64,000 nt of DNA from Candidatus Saccharicenans subterraneus (lineage in GTDB: Bacteria > Acidobacteriota > Aminicenantia > Aminicenantales > Saccharicenantaceae). The translations under genes were made by a program, and so were the position numbers. The DNA lies in the NCBI GenBank assembly GCA_003426165.1, contig QUAH01000002.1, positions 62,001 to 126,000 on the forward strand, read 5' to 3'. Shown here piece after piece: positions 14,390-63,402 of this stretch (the first letter of the stretch is position 1; each line of letters starts with the position of its first letter). The notes beneath the pieces are model-generated. The model saw only the letters and a list, made by a program, of their open reading frames with translations. It was not told the origin of the DNA and did not search any database.

Positions 14390-14997
14390 ACAAGACGGCA
14401 GAACCGATGGACGAAACCGCCAGGCAGACAGTCGAGCTGAAATCAAATTTTGGAACCATCCCAAACTACCTGACCCTGCTGCGGATTGTCCTGGTCCCGG
14501 TCTTCGTCTTCTTCCTGCTTAAAAACAAACATACCGAGGCCTTCCTGGTTTTCCTGGCCGCCGGGTTGACCGACGTCCTGGACGGCCTGGCCGCCCGAAT
14601 CTGGCATCAGCATTCGGTGGCCGGCCTCTGGCTCGACCCGCTGGCCGACAAGCTGCTCATCTTCAGCAGTTTCTTCCTGTTGAGTATCCCCGATTTCGCC
14701 CATCCCAATACCATGCCCTGGCGGGTTTTCTGGGTGGTCCTCGGCCGGGACCTGTTGATTGTCATCGGGGCGGCGGTGCTTTTCTTTTTGAAAATCAAGC
14801 AGAGTTTCCCGCCCACCCTCATGGGCAAGACCAGTACCGTCTGCCAGGTGTTGACCGTCCTGGCCGTCCTGTTTTTCAATTTTCTGCAGAAGGAAGTCAG
14901 CCTGCTCGGCTGGCTTTACGACCTGACCATCCTGGCCACCGTGCTCTCCGGTCTTCAGTACATCTGGGTGGGAATTTCAGCGCTCAGAAGAAAATAG
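14386..14997 (+). CDS. pgsA: CDP-alcohol phosphatidyltransferase (phosphatidylglycerophosphate synthase)
   Basis: IPNYLTLLRIVLVPVFVFFLL and DVLDGLAARIWHQHSVAGLWLDPLADKLL (CDP-OH-P signature). Confidence 0.92.
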   Translation: MNKTAEPMDETARQTVELKSNFGTIPNYLTLLRIVLVPVFVFFLLKNKHTEAFLVFLAAGLTDVLDGLAARIWHQHSVAGLWLDPLADKLLIFSSFFLLSIPDFAHPNTMPWRVFWVVLGRDLLIVIGAAVLFFLKIKQSFPPTLMGKTSTVCQVLTVLAVLFFNFLQKEVSLLGWLYDLTILATVLSGLQYIWVGISALRRK

Positions 14998-16167
14998 GAT
15001 TTCAGATAATATTCCTTCAAACTGTTCTTTCCAGGCGCCGAGGCTATAATGTTTCTTAACATGCTCCCTGGCCGATAGGCCCATCTGCCGGCCCCTCTCC
15101 GGGTTTTTAACAATCACCTGAAGAAAAGCTCCCAGCGCGGCATAGTCCCGGTAATCAAAAATAAAACCGGTGCGCCCGTGAATGACCAGCTCGGAAGCCG
15201 CCCCTTTTTCCACGACCACCGGAACACCGGCCAGCCCGGCCTCCAGGACCACCCGGCTTAGCGGGTCAAAGCCGGGGAAGATGACTGCCGCCCGAAAGCT
15301 TTTCCACCTGGACTGGAGCTCTGAAAAATCGGTGAATTCCAGTTCCAGGCCGCTTCCGGTTGAAGTCCGACCAAGGCTTTCTTCCAGCTTCCGTTGTCGG
15401 GCCTGGCTCAGACCGGGGAAAAATATGGAAACCGTCTGGATGGGCCACGGTCCGTCTCCGGTGCTGGCCGCAACCTGGCCCAGGGCCTGGACCGCTTCCC
15501 TGACTCTTTTCAGGTCCGGCCCGCTGAAAAACATGGCCACCGCCGCAGGCGGAGAGGCCGGGTCGTCACGGGTTAGCCTGCTCTCAAGCCACCCGGCATC
15601 AATGGCCGGGGGCAAGACCAGGGACTTGGCCCGGGTCCTTTTTCGCCTGAACATCTCGGCCGCCAGTGAAGATTCCAGCAGAACCCTGACCGACAGGTCG
15701 TTGGCCAGGCGGCTGGCCAGCCACCGACCCCAGAAGAAATTCAGCTAGTTGGTCCGGCCGGAGAGCACTTCCCTTATCATCCAGATATGACTGACCCCTT
15801 CCTGGCGGGCGGCCAGGGCCCCGGTCCAGTTGATAAAAGACAGGCTGACCACCAGTTGAACTCTTTTCTTCCTGATAACGGCTGAAATCCTGACGAAACT
15901 GCTGAGGTTATAAACCCAGGCTACGGGCTGACGCCACAGCTCCCGGAAATCGGTCAGGTAATTATGCCCCTTGATGACCCGAGACGGTACCCCTGCTTCT
16001 GAAGCCTGGCTGACCAGCCGACCCCCGGCCGGAAAAATCAATTCGGCGGAAAAAGGTTTATCACCAGGAGTCCTTAGGTAATCAAGGATCTGGCACTCGC
16101 CGCTGCCGAACTCCCCCGAGCCGGCGACAAATAAGACTTCGGGCTTGTTTTCCAGGTTCAAAAACAC
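14977..16167 (-). pseudogene. GT4-type glycosyltransferase interrupted by one in-frame TAG (15745-15747)
   Basis: N-terminal ORF 15745-16167 (...HIWMIREVLSGRTN*) and C-terminal ORF 14977-15654 are in the same frame; the linking sequence reads LNFFWGRWLASRLANDLSVRVLLESSLAAE-MFRRK with only one stop codon. Confidence 0.8.
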
Positions 16168-16251
16168 CTCCTGGCCTGGCCAGCCTGGATGGCAGGTTTA
16201 TAACAAGATTTTATCCCCATCCGACATTAAGTCAAGCCGACCGTTCTTTCA

Positions 16252-16312
16252 GGTTAAGACATGGCATCCAGTCTGGTGGGTCTGTTTGGAAGCAGCGGGG
16301 TGGTAGTCCGGC
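16252..16312 (-). repeat. Copy A of dispersed promoter-upstream element
   Basis: ggttaagacatggcatccagtctggtgggtctgtttggaagcagcggggtggtagtccggc, similar to 27541-27600 and 62992-63050; 16 nt from a TTGACT box (complement 16230-16235). Confidence 0.65.
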
Positions 16313-27464: not shown

Positions 27465-27540
27465 GTTTCCTCCTTCTTTCAACCGGATAGGTTGAGTATA
27501 TAAAAATCTAAAAATTCCAGTCAAACTAATTTTTCATTCC

Positions 27541-27600
27541 GGTCAAGACATGGTATCCATTCTAAGGCGTACATTCGGAAGCAGCGAGTAGTAGCCCGGC
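27541..27600 (-). repeat. Copy B of dispersed promoter-upstream element
   Basis: ggtcaagacatggtatccattctaaggcgtacattcggaagcagcgagtagtagcccggc; 16 nt from TTGACT (complement 27519-27524), TATACT at 18-nt spacing. Confidence 0.7.
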
Positions 27601-27871
27601 CATCAATTTCTCTCCTTTAATCAAGGGACTGATTCATTATCAATGGCAGAAGAGCAGACAGGTAATTCTTTTCAGTTTATAGCTCCGGCCTCTTGCTATG
27701 GCTCAAATCAAATTATTACCGAGAGCCTGGCCTGGCAACGGACAGATGGTGTCCAGGTAAATGGGAGTGTTGGGAAGGGGCCCTGATGTTTCCGGGAAGG
27801 CCAGGGGCGGACGCAACCGACAGGATTCCCCGGGAGCAATTGAAGATTTAATGCCCACCGTCTGCTGAAAA

Positions 27872-37200: not shown

Positions 37201-39963
37201 TTGACTAAAAAAGTTCTTGTATCACTGATGATCATCCTGACGCTGACCTCCTTGACCTATTCCCAGTCAAGAGAAACAGGTGCCATCACCGGGACGGTGA
37301 CCGATGAATCGGGTGCGCCGCTGCCCGGGGTAACCGTGACCATTTCAGGTCCCAGTCTTATGGGCACCAGGTCTTCCGTGACCGATGCCAGGGGCGTCTA
37401 CAGGTTCCCGGCCCTGCCGCCCGGAACGTACTCCGTCAAGGCCGAGCTTCAGGGCTTCAACGACGTGGTTAACTCCAATGTCCGTTTAACGACCACAACC
37501 ACTTTGACCGTTGACCTGAGCATGAAGCAGTCCGCCCTGGAGGAATCGGTTACGGTTTTGGGTAAAGCCCCCACCATCGACGTCAGGTCCACAGAAACCG
37601 CCTCGGTGGCCCTGACCAACGAGCTCCTGCGCAACATGCCCTACAGCCAGTTTACGGCCGACATCGTCAACATGGCCCCGGGTGTCAATGACAACGTGGC
37701 CTTCGGCGCTTCCCAGAACACGGGAATTGCCTACACCATGGACGGGGTCAACGTGGCCGACCCGGAAGCCGGCTCAGCCTGGGTCTTCTCCGACCACAAC
37801 ATCGTGGAAGAAGCCAAGATCATGGGCGTCGGGCTTCCGGCTGAATACGGCAACTTTACCGGAGTTATTTTTAACCTAATAACCAAGTCCGGGGGAAACA
37901 ACTTCTCGGGCCACATGGAATTCGATTTCCAGGGGAAAAAGACGGACGGTCCGAAGGGTTTCTGGGGCACGGACAATAACTCGGCCTACATTGGCGACTT
38001 TCCCAACTTGACCACTCCGCTGGCCAAGCTCATGGACGTTAGTGCCCATCTGGGTGGCCCAATCATCAGGGACAAGTTGTGGTTCTACGTCGGCCTGCAG
38101 TACTACCGGAGCAAGGATTATCCGACCGGCTTCCCCGAGGCCGTCGATTACAAGCAGCCCAGGAGCTTCTTCAAGTTAACTTCACAGCTGACCAACCTGA
38201 CCATGACCGCTTCAGTCCAGATCGACACCTATAACGGTATCAATCGCGGGGCCGGAGCCACGGTTTCGCCAGAAGCGACGCTCACGCAGAAATCCCCGGA
38301 GCTGGTCGGCAACTTCAGCCTGACCAAGATCCTCAGCTCCAAGACCTTCCTGGATATCAAGGCTGCATATTTCTGGGGTTACTATTATCTTGACCCTGAA
38401 GTCGGCATGGCTCCCTACATGCATTTTGATTACGCCGATAACTTCCAGCGCTACAGCTCGGGAACTTTTGGTTATTATGACCGGCAACGCTTCCAGGCCA
38501 ATGCCAACCTGAGCCACTTCGTGGACGACTTTTATGGCTCTCACGACTTCAAGTTCGGTGCCGAATTCGAAAGGTCCATGTCCCGCAACCGCTGGGGTTA
38601 TACGGGTGAAGGGGGAGAGCTGGGCGACCATATTCAGTACTACGATTACTACGGTTATCCTTACATAGCCTACCAGTACGAAGGATATGACACCAACACC
38701 CGGTACACCAGGCTGGAAGCTTTCGCCCAGGATTCCTGGCAGGTAACCAAGAGACTGAACATCAATGCCGGCGTCAGGTTCAGCTTTTACTGGGGCCAGG
38801 TAAAAGGAGTTTCGGGGAACGTTTACACCAATTCCAGGATCTCCCCGCGCATCGGCTTCTCCTATGACCTGTTCGGCGACAAGACCACGGTCTTAAAGGC
38901 CCACTACGGGCACTTCTCCGAGGCCATGCTCACTGCCTATCACGACCGGATGAACCCGCCCTCGGTCTACAGCGACTACAACGGCTACTACTACGACTGG
39001 TACGACGATGACGAGGACGGCATCACCGACGAATGGTTACTGTCCTTCTCAATTCCCCATAACCAGTTCTTGATGGACCAGGACATCAAGCACCCCTACA
39101 TGATCCAGTGGACGGTCAGCCTGGAGCGCGAACTGTTCAAGGATTCTTCCTTCAGCATCAGCTACATCAACCGCCAGTGGAAGAATCTTATCGGGCCCAT
39201 AGACCTGAATGCCGATTACGTGGAAAGGACGGTGACCGTTCCCAACTTCGGAACCTATACGGTCTATGAAAGAACTCTGGAAACCCTGGAAAACCCGCAG
39301 TACCTGATCACCAACCTGGATAGAGCTTACGGCGATTACCCCTGGATCCTGGAAAAACCCTTCCGGAAATATCACGGCATCCAGTTCATGTTCAATAAGC
39401 GCTTCTCCAACAGGTGGCAATTGCTGGCCTCCTACACCCTGTCCAAGGCCTGGGGTACCACCGATAACGGTTTCGCCGACGACATCGGATGGGGTGGCGA
39501 CAGGTACGACCCCAACTTCTGGATTAACAGTGAGGGAAACTCCACCTACGACCCGACCCACGTGATCAAGGTCCAGGGCACCTATGTCATCCCCAAGGTC
39601 GAACTGAGTGTTAACGTCTACTACCACGGCGTCACCGGAAATGCCTGGACCACGCGTTATCGGACCTCCCGCTTCACCCAGGGCCGGATCACCTTCTTTG
39701 TAGAACCCCGCGGCTCCAATCACTACCCGATGGACCACCAGATCGACATCAGGCTGGAGAAGATCTTCACCTTCGCCAGCAAGTACCGGCTGGGCCTGAT
39801 GGTTGACGTCTTCAACCTGCTGAATTCCGATACCATAACCTCCTGGGGTACCCGCTGGATGTACGACTGGAACCCGAGCAGTTATCCTTCCACCATGGGT
39901 CACGAACTCTACGGAATCGTCAACGCCAGGCAGGCTCGAGTTGGAATTCGTTTGATCTTCTGA
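37201..39963 (+). CDS. TonB-dependent receptor with N-terminal carboxypeptidase-regulatory domain, paralog 1 (TTG start)
   Basis: GAITGTVTDESGAPLPGVTVTISGPSLMGTRSSVTDARGVYRFPALPPGTYSVKAELQGF, plug and beta-barrel ending VGIRLIF. Confidence 0.93.
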   Translation: MTKKVLVSLMIILTLTSLTYSQSRETGAITGTVTDESGAPLPGVTVTISGPSLMGTRSSVTDARGVYRFPALPPGTYSVKAELQGFNDVVNSNVRLTTTTTLTVDLSMKQSALEESVTVLGKAPTIDVRSTETASVALTNELLRNMPYSQFTADIVNMAPGVNDNVAFGASQNTGIAYTMDGVNVADPEAGSAWVFSDHNIVEEAKIMGVGLPAEYGNFTGVIFNLITKSGGNNFSGHMEFDFQGKKTDGPKGFWGTDNNSAYIGDFPNLTTPLAKLMDVSAHLGGPIIRDKLWFYVGLQYYRSKDYPTGFPEAVDYKQPRSFFKLTSQLTNLTMTASVQIDTYNGINRGAGATVSPEATLTQKSPELVGNFSLTKILSSKTFLDIKAAYFWGYYYLDPEVGMAPYMHFDYADNFQRYSSGTFGYYDRQRFQANANLSHFVDDFYGSHDFKFGAEFERSMSRNRWGYTGEGGELGDHIQYYDYYGYPYIAYQYEGYDTNTRYTRLEAFAQDSWQVTKRLNINAGVRFSFYWGQVKGVSGNVYTNSRISPRIGFSYDLFGDKTTVLKAHYGHFSEAMLTAYHDRMNPPSVYSDYNGYYYDWYDDDEDGITDEWLLSFSIPHNQFLMDQDIKHPYMIQWTVSLERELFKDSSFSISYINRQWKNLIGPIDLNADYVERTVTVPNFGTYTVYERTLETLENPQYLITNLDRAYGDYPWILEKPFRKYHGIQFMFNKRFSNRWQLLASYTLSKAWGTTDNGFADDIGWGGDRYDPNFWINSEGNSTYDPTHVIKVQGTYVIPKVELSVNVYYHGVTGNAWTTRYRTSRFTQGRITFFVEPRGSNHYPMDHQIDIRLEKIFTFASKYRLGLMVDVFNLLNSDTITSWGTRWMYDWNPSSYPSTMGHELYGIVNARQARVGIRLIF

Positions 39964-40254: not shown

Positions 40255-40347
40255 AAGGAGGTGAGAATAAAAAGGAAAGAACCTTGTTTCTGGTTCTTCG
40301 GCCCAAGGAGTAGATTATTGATGGAAAGGAGGAGAGAGATTGATTAA
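40255..40347 (+). promoter_or_regulatory. 5' leader of receptor 2: AAGGAGGTGA SD, 28-aa GTG-started leader ORF (40261-40347), hairpin AAGAACC/GGTTCTT
   Basis: Leader frame MRIKRKEPCFWFFGPRSRLLMERRREID* ends in TAA overlapping the TTG start of the receptor at 40340. Confidence 0.45.
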
Positions 40348-43102
40348 AAAAGTTTTTGTTCCACTGTTGATCGTTTTGTTGCTGACTCCTCTGGCCTTTT
40401 CCCAGTCACGTGAAACAGGAGCCATCACCGGGACGGTGACCGACGAATCGGGCACGCCGCTACCCGGGGTGACCGTGACCATTTCCGGTCCCGGTCTTAT
40501 GGGCACCAGGTCTTCCGTGACCGATGCCAGGGGCGTCTACAGGTTCCCGGCCCTGCCGCCCGGAACCTACACCATTAAAGCCGAGCTCCAGGGCTTCAGC
40601 GACGTGGTTAACTCCAACGTCCGCCTGACCACGACCACCACTTTAACCATCGACCTGACCATGAAGCAGTCCGCGCTGGAAGAGCAGGTTACGGTTGTGG
40701 CCAAGTCACCCACGGTTGACGTTAAATCGACCGAAACCGCCTCGGTGGCCCTGACCAACGAGCTCCTGCGCAACATGCCCTACAGCCAGTTCACGGCCGA
40801 CATCGTCAACATGGCCCCGGGCGTCACCAACAACGTGGCCTTCGGCGCTTCCCAGAACACGGGTATCGCCTACACCATGGACGGTGTCAACGTGGCCGAC
40901 CCGGAAGCCGGTTCAGCCTGGGTCTTCTCCGACCACAACATCGTGGAAGAAGCCAAGATCATGGGCGTCGGGCTTCCGGCTGAATACGGCAACTTTACCG
41001 GTGTTATTTTCAACCTGATCACCAAGTCGGGTGGAAATAACTTCTCGGGCCACATGGAATTCGATTTCCAGGGTAAAAAGACCGACGGTCCGAAAGGTTT
41101 CTGGGGCACCGACAACAATGCTGCCTACATCAATGACTTTCCCGAGTTGTCCACCCCCCTGCTGAAGCTCATGGACGTCAACGCCCACCTGGGCGGACCC
41201 ATCATCAGGGACAAGCTGTGGTTCTACGTCGGCCTCCAGTATTACCGGACCTGGCGCTATCCCACCGGCTTCCCCGAGGCCGTCGATTACAAGCAGCCCA
41301 GGAGCTTCTTCAAGCTGAGCTCCCAGTTGCCCAACCTGTCCATGACCGGTTCAGTCCAGATAGATACGTATGATGGTATAAACCGCGGAGCCGGAGCTAC
41401 GGTTTCTCCGGAAGCCACCGTTACCCAGAAATCACCCGAAGTGGTGGCCAACTTCAGCCTGACCAAGATTTTCAGCTCCAAGACCTTCCTGGATATCAAG
41501 GCCGCCTATTTCTGGGGCTATTACTACCTGGACCCTGAAGTCGGCATGGCTCCCTATATGCATTTTGACTATGGCGACAACTTCCAGCGCTACAGCTCCG
41601 GGTATTTCTATTATGCCGACAGGCAACGGTTCCAGGCCAATGCCAACCTGAGCCATTACGTCGAAGATTTTTATGGCTCTCACGACTTCAAGTTCGGCGC
41701 CGAATTTGAAAGATCAATGGCCCGCAGCCGATACGGCTTCACCGGCGAGGGCGGAGAGCTTGGCGACCACGTACAGTACTATGACTATTACGGTTATCCC
41801 TACATAGCTTACCAGTACAATGGGTACGATATTAACACCCGTTACACCAGGCTGGAAGCCTTCGCCCAGGATTCCTGGCAGGTAACCAAGAGGCTGAACA
41901 TCAACGCCGGTGTCAGGTTCAGCTTTTACTGGGGCCAGGTTAAAGGCGTATCCGGGAATGTCTATACCAATACCAGGATTGCACCCCGCATCGGCTTCAC
42001 CTATGACCTGTTCGGCGACAAGACCACGGTCTTAAAGGCCCACTACGGGCACTTCTCCGAGGCCATGCTGACCGCCTATCACGACCGGATGAACCCGCCT
42101 TCCGCCTACAGCAGCTACAACGGTTATTACTATGACTACGCTGATGACGACGAAGACGGCATCACCGACGAATGGCTGCTCTGGTATTCGATTCCCCATG
42201 ACCAGTACCTGATGGACCCGGATATCAAGCACCCCTACATGATCCAGTGGACGGTCAGCCTGGAGCGCGAACTGTTCAAGGATTCTTCCTTCAGCATCAG
42301 CTATATCAACCGCCAGTGGAAGAATCTAATCGGACCCATAGACCTGAATGCCGATTACGTTCCAAGAACGGTCACCGTTCCCAACTTCGGAACCTATACG
42401 GTCTATGAAAGAACACCGGAAACCCTGGAAACCCCGCAGTACTACATCACCAACCTAGACCGGGTCTACGGCGACTACCCCTGGATCCTGGAAAAGCCAT
42501 TCCGGAAATATCACGGCATCCAGTTCATGTTCAATAAGCGCTTCTCCAACCGGTGGCAGTTATGGGCTTCCTACACCCTGTCCAAGGCCTGGGGCACCAC
42601 CGATAACGGTTTTGCCGATGACATCGGCTATGGCGGCAACGTCTACGACCCGAACTTCTGGATAAACAGCAACGGTAATTCCACCTACGACCCGACCCAC
42701 ATGATCAAGGTCCAGGGCACCTATGTCATCCCCAAGATCGAACTGAGCGTTAACGTCTACTACCACGGCATCACCGGAAACGCCTGGACCACCAGGTACA
42801 GGACCTCACGCTTTACCCAGGGCCGGATCACCTTCTTTGTCGAACCTCGCGGCTCCAACCACTACCCGATGGACCACCAGATTGACATCAGGCTGGAAAA
42901 GATCTTCACCTTCGCCAGTAAGTACCGGCTGGGCCTGATGGTTGACGTCTTCAACCTGCTGAATAGTGACACAATCACCTCCTGGGGAACCCGCTGGATG
43001 TATGACTGGATTCCGACCAGCTATCCTTCCACCATGGGTCATCAACTCTACGGAATCGTCAATGCCAGGCAGGCCAGGGTTGGAGTCCGGTTGATCTTCT
43101 AA
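40340..43102 (+). CDS. TonB-dependent receptor with N-terminal carboxypeptidase-regulatory domain, paralog 2 (TTG start)
   Basis: Same length (920 aa) and near-identical sequence to the 37201 ORF, ends VGVRLIF. Confidence 0.93.
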   Translation: MIKKVFVPLLIVLLLTPLAFSQSRETGAITGTVTDESGTPLPGVTVTISGPGLMGTRSSVTDARGVYRFPALPPGTYTIKAELQGFSDVVNSNVRLTTTTTLTIDLTMKQSALEEQVTVVAKSPTVDVKSTETASVALTNELLRNMPYSQFTADIVNMAPGVTNNVAFGASQNTGIAYTMDGVNVADPEAGSAWVFSDHNIVEEAKIMGVGLPAEYGNFTGVIFNLITKSGGNNFSGHMEFDFQGKKTDGPKGFWGTDNNAAYINDFPELSTPLLKLMDVNAHLGGPIIRDKLWFYVGLQYYRTWRYPTGFPEAVDYKQPRSFFKLSSQLPNLSMTGSVQIDTYDGINRGAGATVSPEATVTQKSPEVVANFSLTKIFSSKTFLDIKAAYFWGYYYLDPEVGMAPYMHFDYGDNFQRYSSGYFYYADRQRFQANANLSHYVEDFYGSHDFKFGAEFERSMARSRYGFTGEGGELGDHVQYYDYYGYPYIAYQYNGYDINTRYTRLEAFAQDSWQVTKRLNINAGVRFSFYWGQVKGVSGNVYTNTRIAPRIGFTYDLFGDKTTVLKAHYGHFSEAMLTAYHDRMNPPSAYSSYNGYYYDYADDDEDGITDEWLLWYSIPHDQYLMDPDIKHPYMIQWTVSLERELFKDSSFSISYINRQWKNLIGPIDLNADYVPRTVTVPNFGTYTVYERTPETLETPQYYITNLDRVYGDYPWILEKPFRKYHGIQFMFNKRFSNRWQLWASYTLSKAWGTTDNGFADDIGYGGNVYDPNFWINSNGNSTYDPTHMIKVQGTYVIPKIELSVNVYYHGITGNAWTTRYRTSRFTQGRITFFVEPRGSNHYPMDHQIDIRLEKIFTFASKYRLGLMVDVFNLLNSDTITSWGTRWMYDWIPTSYPSTMGHQLYGIVNARQARVGVRLIF

Positions 43103-62928: not shown

Positions 62929-62991
62929 ATTGTTTTCGCTGTTTTATTTATAAAACTAAAAAAAATTCCTGTCAAATAAATTTTTCTTTCC

Positions 62992-63050
62992 GGTTAAGAC
63001 ATGACATCCAGACGAAGGGGAATATATGGAGGTGGTGGTGGCAGTCAGGC
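62992..63050 (-). repeat. Copy C of dispersed promoter-upstream element
   Basis: ggttaagacatgacatccagacgaaggggaatatatggaggtggtggtggcagtcaggc; 16 nt from TTGACA (complement 62970-62975), TATAAA at 17-nt spacing. Confidence 0.65.
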
Positions 63051-63402
63051 CTGAATCGAAGATGAACAGACAAGCCATTCAGGTCAGAACCGGGCCACCT
63101 CCCTGAAAGCGGGCCTGATTCTCAAATTGCCCCGGGCCTGGTAACCGGAAGCGGCAGAACCCGGGGAACAAGATCGCCCCTGACCAGATAATACCTTGGT
63201 ATCAAAAGCACCTGGCAATAAAATAAAACCGGCAATAAAATAAAAAAAGAAGATGAGCCTTTAAAAAGTGAAGCATCCGGAAAGTATCCGTCCCGCCTAT
63301 TCCTTCTTATTTTTCCGTTTCCCCAGCCCGATTGAAAATTTCACATGGCTGGATTTCAGGTTGACAGCCGCACCGATTTGGATAAAATTAAATCCGCTGG
63401 GT

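Follow-up and report, generated by a model that had tools for sequence, protein, structure and literature searches.

The repeat of about 60 nt that lies upstream of three genes in the window (the whole 64,000-nt stretch of DNA from Candidatus Saccharicenans subterraneus analyzed here) is, with very high probability, the left terminus of a ~1.3-kb IS481-like insertion sequence (IS) that targets promoters in one orientation, and the three copies, A, B and C, are its truncated fossils. Comparisons of occupied and empty sites show an element that inserts one way round, with its left end facing the promoter, 8 (sometimes 9) bp upstream of a putative sigma70-type -35 box; as read from these alignments, 4-5 bp of the gap become duplicated on insertion, and the predicted -35 and -10 boxes stay intact. 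The regulatory meaning given to the repeat in the initial annotation of this DNA is wrong, and the fixed spacing records the position of IS insertion.

Copies in the window

The pattern GGTYAAGACATGNNATCCA has three matches in the 64-kb window, at 16252, 27541 and 62992, versus 0.16 expected by shuffling, and none of 100 shuffled sequences attained three. These positions, and the equal distance of the copies from a -35 box, are exactly those of the initial annotation, which was also correct in placing each copy upstream of a minus-strand gene: minus-strand ORFs lie downstream of all three. The true 5' edge of the element, TTC[T/A]TTC, is found further to the left, at 16244, 27533 and 62984. 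Because the order GTCAA-N8-TTC[T/A]TTC occurs without deviation at all three places (16231, 27520 and 62971), the element starts 8 bases to the left of GGTTAAG, the edge taken earlier, and the constant 16 nt to the -35 box, itself confirmed, consists of 8 variable bases and 8 bases of the element. That the segment is a repeat holds as well; the length of ~60 nt does not, since the window copies are cut off at ~65-70 nt, and intact copies, found elsewhere, extend into a transposase gene. The features are listed below, and the promoter of copy A is the one proposed at the outset (TTGACT, N16, TAAAAT).

16244..16312, no strand: copy A, truncated left end of the IS (left inverted repeat 16244-16271 and the start of the leader)
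16236..16243, no strand: copy A, 8-bp host DNA between the -35 box and the IS end
16230..16235, minus strand (complement): copy A, -35 box TTGACT of the host promoter
16208..16213, minus strand (complement): copy A, -10 box TAAAAT, spacer 16
27533..27604, no strand: copy B, truncated left end of the IS (left inverted repeat 27533-27560)
27519..27524, minus strand: copy B, -35 box TTGACT of the host promoter
27497..27502, minus strand: copy B, -10 box TATATA, spacer 16
62984..63051, no strand: copy C, truncated left end of the IS (left inverted repeat 62984-63011)
62970..62975, minus strand: copy C, -35 box TTGACA of the host promoter
62947..62952, minus strand: copy C, -10 box TATAAA, spacer 17

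In copy A, the transposase and the right end are absent, and the truncation point is identical in the orthologous locus of genome G012 (L309). The 8-bp gap of this copy is the place of a 4-bp target duplication plus 4 bp, and its -35 box is already there in relatives that lack the relic (G004, G015 and G010). The orthologous relic of copy B is present in G009 (L290/L074). All three window copies are the remains of old insertions and have lost the transposase and the right end, with 65-70 bp of the left end kept.

Two further observations concern genes of the window. The glycosyltransferase gene that follows copy A (14977-16167, minus strand) is interrupted by one in-frame stop codon and is either a pseudogene or the result of an assembly error. 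On the plus strand, 37201-39963 and 40340-43102 encode tandem 920-aa proteins with 91% identity over the full length; the label TonB-dependent-receptor-like was read from their sequence. Comparison of the window to Rfam at the gathering score returned three tRNAs only; the element had no match, and a structured RNA or riboswitch was dropped as a candidate for this reason.

Distribution in the genome and the genus

In the genome that contains the window (2.9 Mb, 25 contigs), a 20-mer pattern yielded 29 matches with up to 3 mismatches, whereas the reversed control yielded 0, and a sequence model of the left end yielded 30. With the same type of model, left ends were found in all 19 genomes of the genus, a few hundred altogether. 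The host genus is one within Candidatus Aminicenantes, and the relatives named here are Candidatus Aminicenantes MAGs, all of the compared genomes being fragmented assemblies. Beyond the genus, pattern matches were sparse, except for one exact match in G042. Several matches in the genome of the window lie ~100 bp from contig ends and combine the same element sequence with differing flanks, which points to a repeat that moved recently and at which the assembly breaks. Relics were gathered via the inverted repeat, and those without it are uncounted.

Transposase and family assignment

The left terminus consists of the left inverted repeat TTCTTTCMGGTTAAGACATGGTATCCAG and a leader. Longer copies run rightwards through this hairpin-bearing leader into an ORF whose product has HTH and integrase-core domains, and three full-length copies from sister species (L100, L101 and L102) have both inverted repeats and one DDE transposase gene. 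In the full copies, the left inverted repeat is TTCTTTCMGGYTAAGACATRGTATCCAG and the right one is GGTCNTTGGYTRAYACATRGTATCCAG; the cores match, and the tips differ. The right-end contig copies (GGTCGTTGGTTAAG...) were considered as a second repeat family, which was rejected, as they are right ends of the same IS.

The transposase (365 aa) is encoded by a single ORF and has N-terminal HTH_28/29/32 and C-terminal rve_3 domains (Pfam); residues D154, D230 and E273 are invariant. Its best-scoring NCBIfam family by far is IS481 (NF033577), at 157.8 bits, and other families score far less; since this is under the equivalog cut-off of 224, we call the transposase IS481-like, below the formal threshold. 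IS481 target duplications are 2-15 bp, mostly 6 (PMC10045372). The present element resembles this family in its single-ORF transposase with an N-terminal HTH and a C-terminal rve DDE core (158 bits), in the inverted repeats of the full copies, and in its 4-5 bp duplication, which lies within the 2-15 bp range; it differs in the score, lower than the curated 224, and in a D-E spacing of 42 residues. All Pfam and NCBIfam matches were of HTH, rve_3 and IS481/IS630/IS3/IS21 types, with no Mutator-type transposase among them. A 5'-truncated retroelement, with one end fixed and the other variable, was dropped given the transposase, the paired inverted repeats and the target duplications.

In longer copies (e.g., L077), a strong hairpin, GGGCTTCCTCC ... 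GGAGGAAGCCC, sits in the leader just before the transposase start; it overlaps the ribosome-binding region of the gene, and translational control is possible. Immediately past the right end of the full IS at L101 (G003:C1, locus position ~2605), there is an inverted-repeat-like GGGTTGAACATAGTATCCAG, possibly a nested or adjacent older IS end.

Empty sites and target duplications

We used flanks of recent copies as queries across the genus to find unoccupied sites. For L001, L002 and L006, recent copies in the genome of the window, left junctions were paired with right-end contigs and compared base by base to the empty sites. The sister genomes are uninterrupted at these sites and have the same 8 bp, -35 box and -10 box; the target duplications are AAAG, TTTAA and AAAT, and the flanks match at 37/40, 40/40 and 40/40 positions, respectively. 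The duplication of L007 (ATAA) was matched to empty sites by eye, and that of L005 (GATT) rests on junctions only. The copy with the 5-bp duplication is the one with the 9-bp gap; thus, the duplication begins 4 bp from TTGAC either way. Among the sites of unoccupied relatives, none without a promoter was seen.

These sites bear directly on the two regulatory readings. According to one of them, the element brings its own promoter to a gene, with the -35 box within or attached to it, and there is indeed a good promoter beside every window copy. However, the same -35 box, -10 box and 8-bp gap exist in relatives without the element, and the 8-bp sequence varies among copies in which the element sequence is identical, so that this reading is almost certainly incorrect. 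According to the other, the element is an operator or activator-binding site, conserved ahead of regulon promoters, consistent with its constant spacing to the -35 box and its position just upstream of the core promoter. It is contradicted by the empty sites, orthologous promoters often being entirely without the element, and by the full form of the repeat, an IS in which the element leads into a transposase gene, with a right inverted repeat as its counterpart and with duplicated target sequence. In addition, the targets are unrelated (e.g., dnaK and tRNA-Phe), and the inverted repeat of relic A has diverged in G012 and G009, although the promoter is conserved there. We regard a binding site as very improbable, and the insertion of an IS at existing promoters as the preferred explanation.

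Occupancy by the IS varies among genomes. The promoter of copy C is empty in G012, G009, G015, G004 and G010, and an IS end adjoins it at the identical base in G011, G002 and G007; this patchy occupancy is the result of repeated insertions or losses. The promoter of L011 is occupied at the start of contig C18 and unoccupied at the end of contig C5 (L361) of one assembly (G000), suggesting that the insertion is polymorphic within the sampled population. L100 lies within a gene, TTGACC being 8 bp away; its duplication is ATCC, and the flanking codons, read by eye, are in frame across the empty site.

Target specificity

GTCAA (TTGAC reversed) is located at exactly -13 in 116/148 distinct left ends and at -14 in 9/148, and the base profile of the 148 left ends has a -10 signal at approximately -38 to -32. 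When similar promoters were removed, GTCAA was at -13 in 100 of 129 left ends, versus a background of 0.13%; it is missing from -12 to -14 in ~15% of the non-redundant left ends. The right ends have GTCAA at -13/-14 in 2/36 cases only, versus 125/148 for the left ends; thus, reversed insertion is rare. The targets include genes for DnaK, LeuS, an ExbD-like protein and an aconitase-like protein (names taken from translations), as well as tRNA-Phe. The genome-wide enrichment shortly upstream of start codons with fixed -35 spacing, anticipated in the initial annotation, is real, the median distance from the IS to the start codon being 80 nt where a ribosome-binding site and start were identified.

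In the set of 40 recent copies, nearly all adjoin TTGAC, and the -10 score reaches 4 or more (spacers 15-19) in 70%; a stop-free 300-nt frame precedes 6 of the 40, versus 62% of random positions. Promoters could also be hit if the IS recognizes TTGAC alone and intergenic insertions survive, as intergenic TTGACs are often -35 boxes. The full copy within a gene, adjoining TTGACC, and the lack of a visible -10 box at some recent copies are consistent with this account. We compared how often a -10 box (score 3 or higher, spacers 16-18) follows IS-adjacent TTGACs and how often it follows control TTGACs, from which empty-site loci, being target promoters, were excluded. The coding status of the controls was judged by ORF length; hence, the control frequencies are approximate. 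For TTGACA, a -10 box followed in 79% of IS-adjacent cases versus 40% of noncoding and 12% of coding controls (p = 2.6e-5 versus noncoding); for TTGAC[CGT], the corresponding values are 72%, 15% and 5% (p = 9.2e-10 versus noncoding). The excess of -10 boxes over noncoding controls is strongest for the weaker hexamers, TTGAC[CGT], which argues against recognition of TTGAC alone; we consider the latter unlikely and prefer targeting of the promoter as a whole.

Relics and their decay

Left ends exceed right ends in this genome (30 versus 6 model matches; right-model matches that are really left ends were left out of the right-end count). One explanation is that relic left ends have been co-opted as UP-element-like or other upstream regulatory DNA and persist for this reason, while right ends do not; the promoter-facing end, GAAAGAA, lies just upstream of the -35 box. 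However, approximately one third of the inverted repeat of relic A is gone in G012, only ~14 nt of relic B remain in G002, and a deletion bounded by the adjacent promoter gives the same asymmetry without any function. Co-option is, in our estimate, improbable. The simplest reading would be that deletions that removed the IS were limited on the promoter side, leaving the left stump. The pairwise identity of orthologous relics is biased by inverted-repeat detection and mixes shared and independent insertions; therefore, these identities were not taken as evidence of constraint.

Known elements and proposed mechanism

TnGBS/ISLre2 and ISKra4-group elements are known to insert with a preferred orientation, 15-17 bp ahead of the -35 box of sigmaA promoters (Guerillot et al. 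2014, PMC3942029); that study draws a parallel to Ty3 in proposing that the transposase contacts the initiation complex of RNA polymerase, and it ascribes the orientation to unlike inverted repeats. The present element shares with TnGBS ICEs, ISLre2 and ISKra4 (p-MULT 3/4, Mutator superfamily) a DDE transposase, a preferred orientation, which is fixed as in p-MULT elements, and a fixed -35 distance. The differences are in the transposase (Mutator there, IS481-like rve/HTH here), in the distance (15-17 bp there, 8 bp in 116/148 or 9 bp in 9/148 left ends here) and in the promoter-facing end (IRr in p-MULT 3, the left end here). The element works like TnGBS/ISLre2/ISKra4 but is not a member of this group. 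A promoter-targeting IS481-like element was not found in the open literature (subscription papers and ISfinder lay outside the search). An IS481-like element that targets promoters at 8 bp is new, whereas oriented targeting itself is known for TnGBS/ISLre2/ISKra4.

The eukaryotic LTR retroelements Ty1 and Ty3 integrate upstream of Pol III genes, at a constant distance that does no harm. The likeness is in the way of working only, i.e., in such a distance from the promoter; contact with the transcription machinery is theirs, whereas for the present element we only infer contact with the polymerase.

Two loci of transposase relatives were not counted as evidence for promoter targeting beyond the genus. 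L286 (G044:C1, another family of the order), with a 35-39% identical transposase, has a promoter in each flank and adjoins a good one of TTGACA with a TATAAT box, but no clear IS boundaries or duplication were seen at the locus. L369 (Thermovirga lienii plasmid pTLIE01; ~38% identity) has TTGACA-N16-TAAAAT between the transposase and the neighbor gene, and no recognizable inverted repeats at the locus.

We suggest that the transposase locates promoters via the -35/-10 DNA or, more likely, via the bound RNA polymerase holoenzyme; DNA-only recognition of the -35 and -10 boxes fits the same data. The orientation may be set by the two inverted repeats, whose outer tips are unlike. The position at approximately -44 would render insertion beside essential genes tolerable, and selection against deletions that reach the promoter would let left ends outlive right ends. 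In a broader proposal, which we advance tentatively and with somewhat less than even confidence, oriented promoter-directed transposition evolved twice, an IS481-like (retroviral-integrase-type) transposase docks on promoter-bound holoenzyme, and remnants have repeatedly replaced the DNA upstream of housekeeping promoters across the genus.

Promoter targeting was earlier deemed atypical of prokaryotic transposable elements and was linked to the Mutator superfamily. With a second type of transposase that has base-level precision, the question of targeting becomes testable by comparing two unrelated transposases, and the finding suggests a means of placing DNA immediately ahead of active promoters. 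A class of repeated upstream sequences in Aminicenantes genomes that could pass for regulatory motifs is likewise explained, and the case illustrates how an IS can adjoin essential genes without apparent cost.
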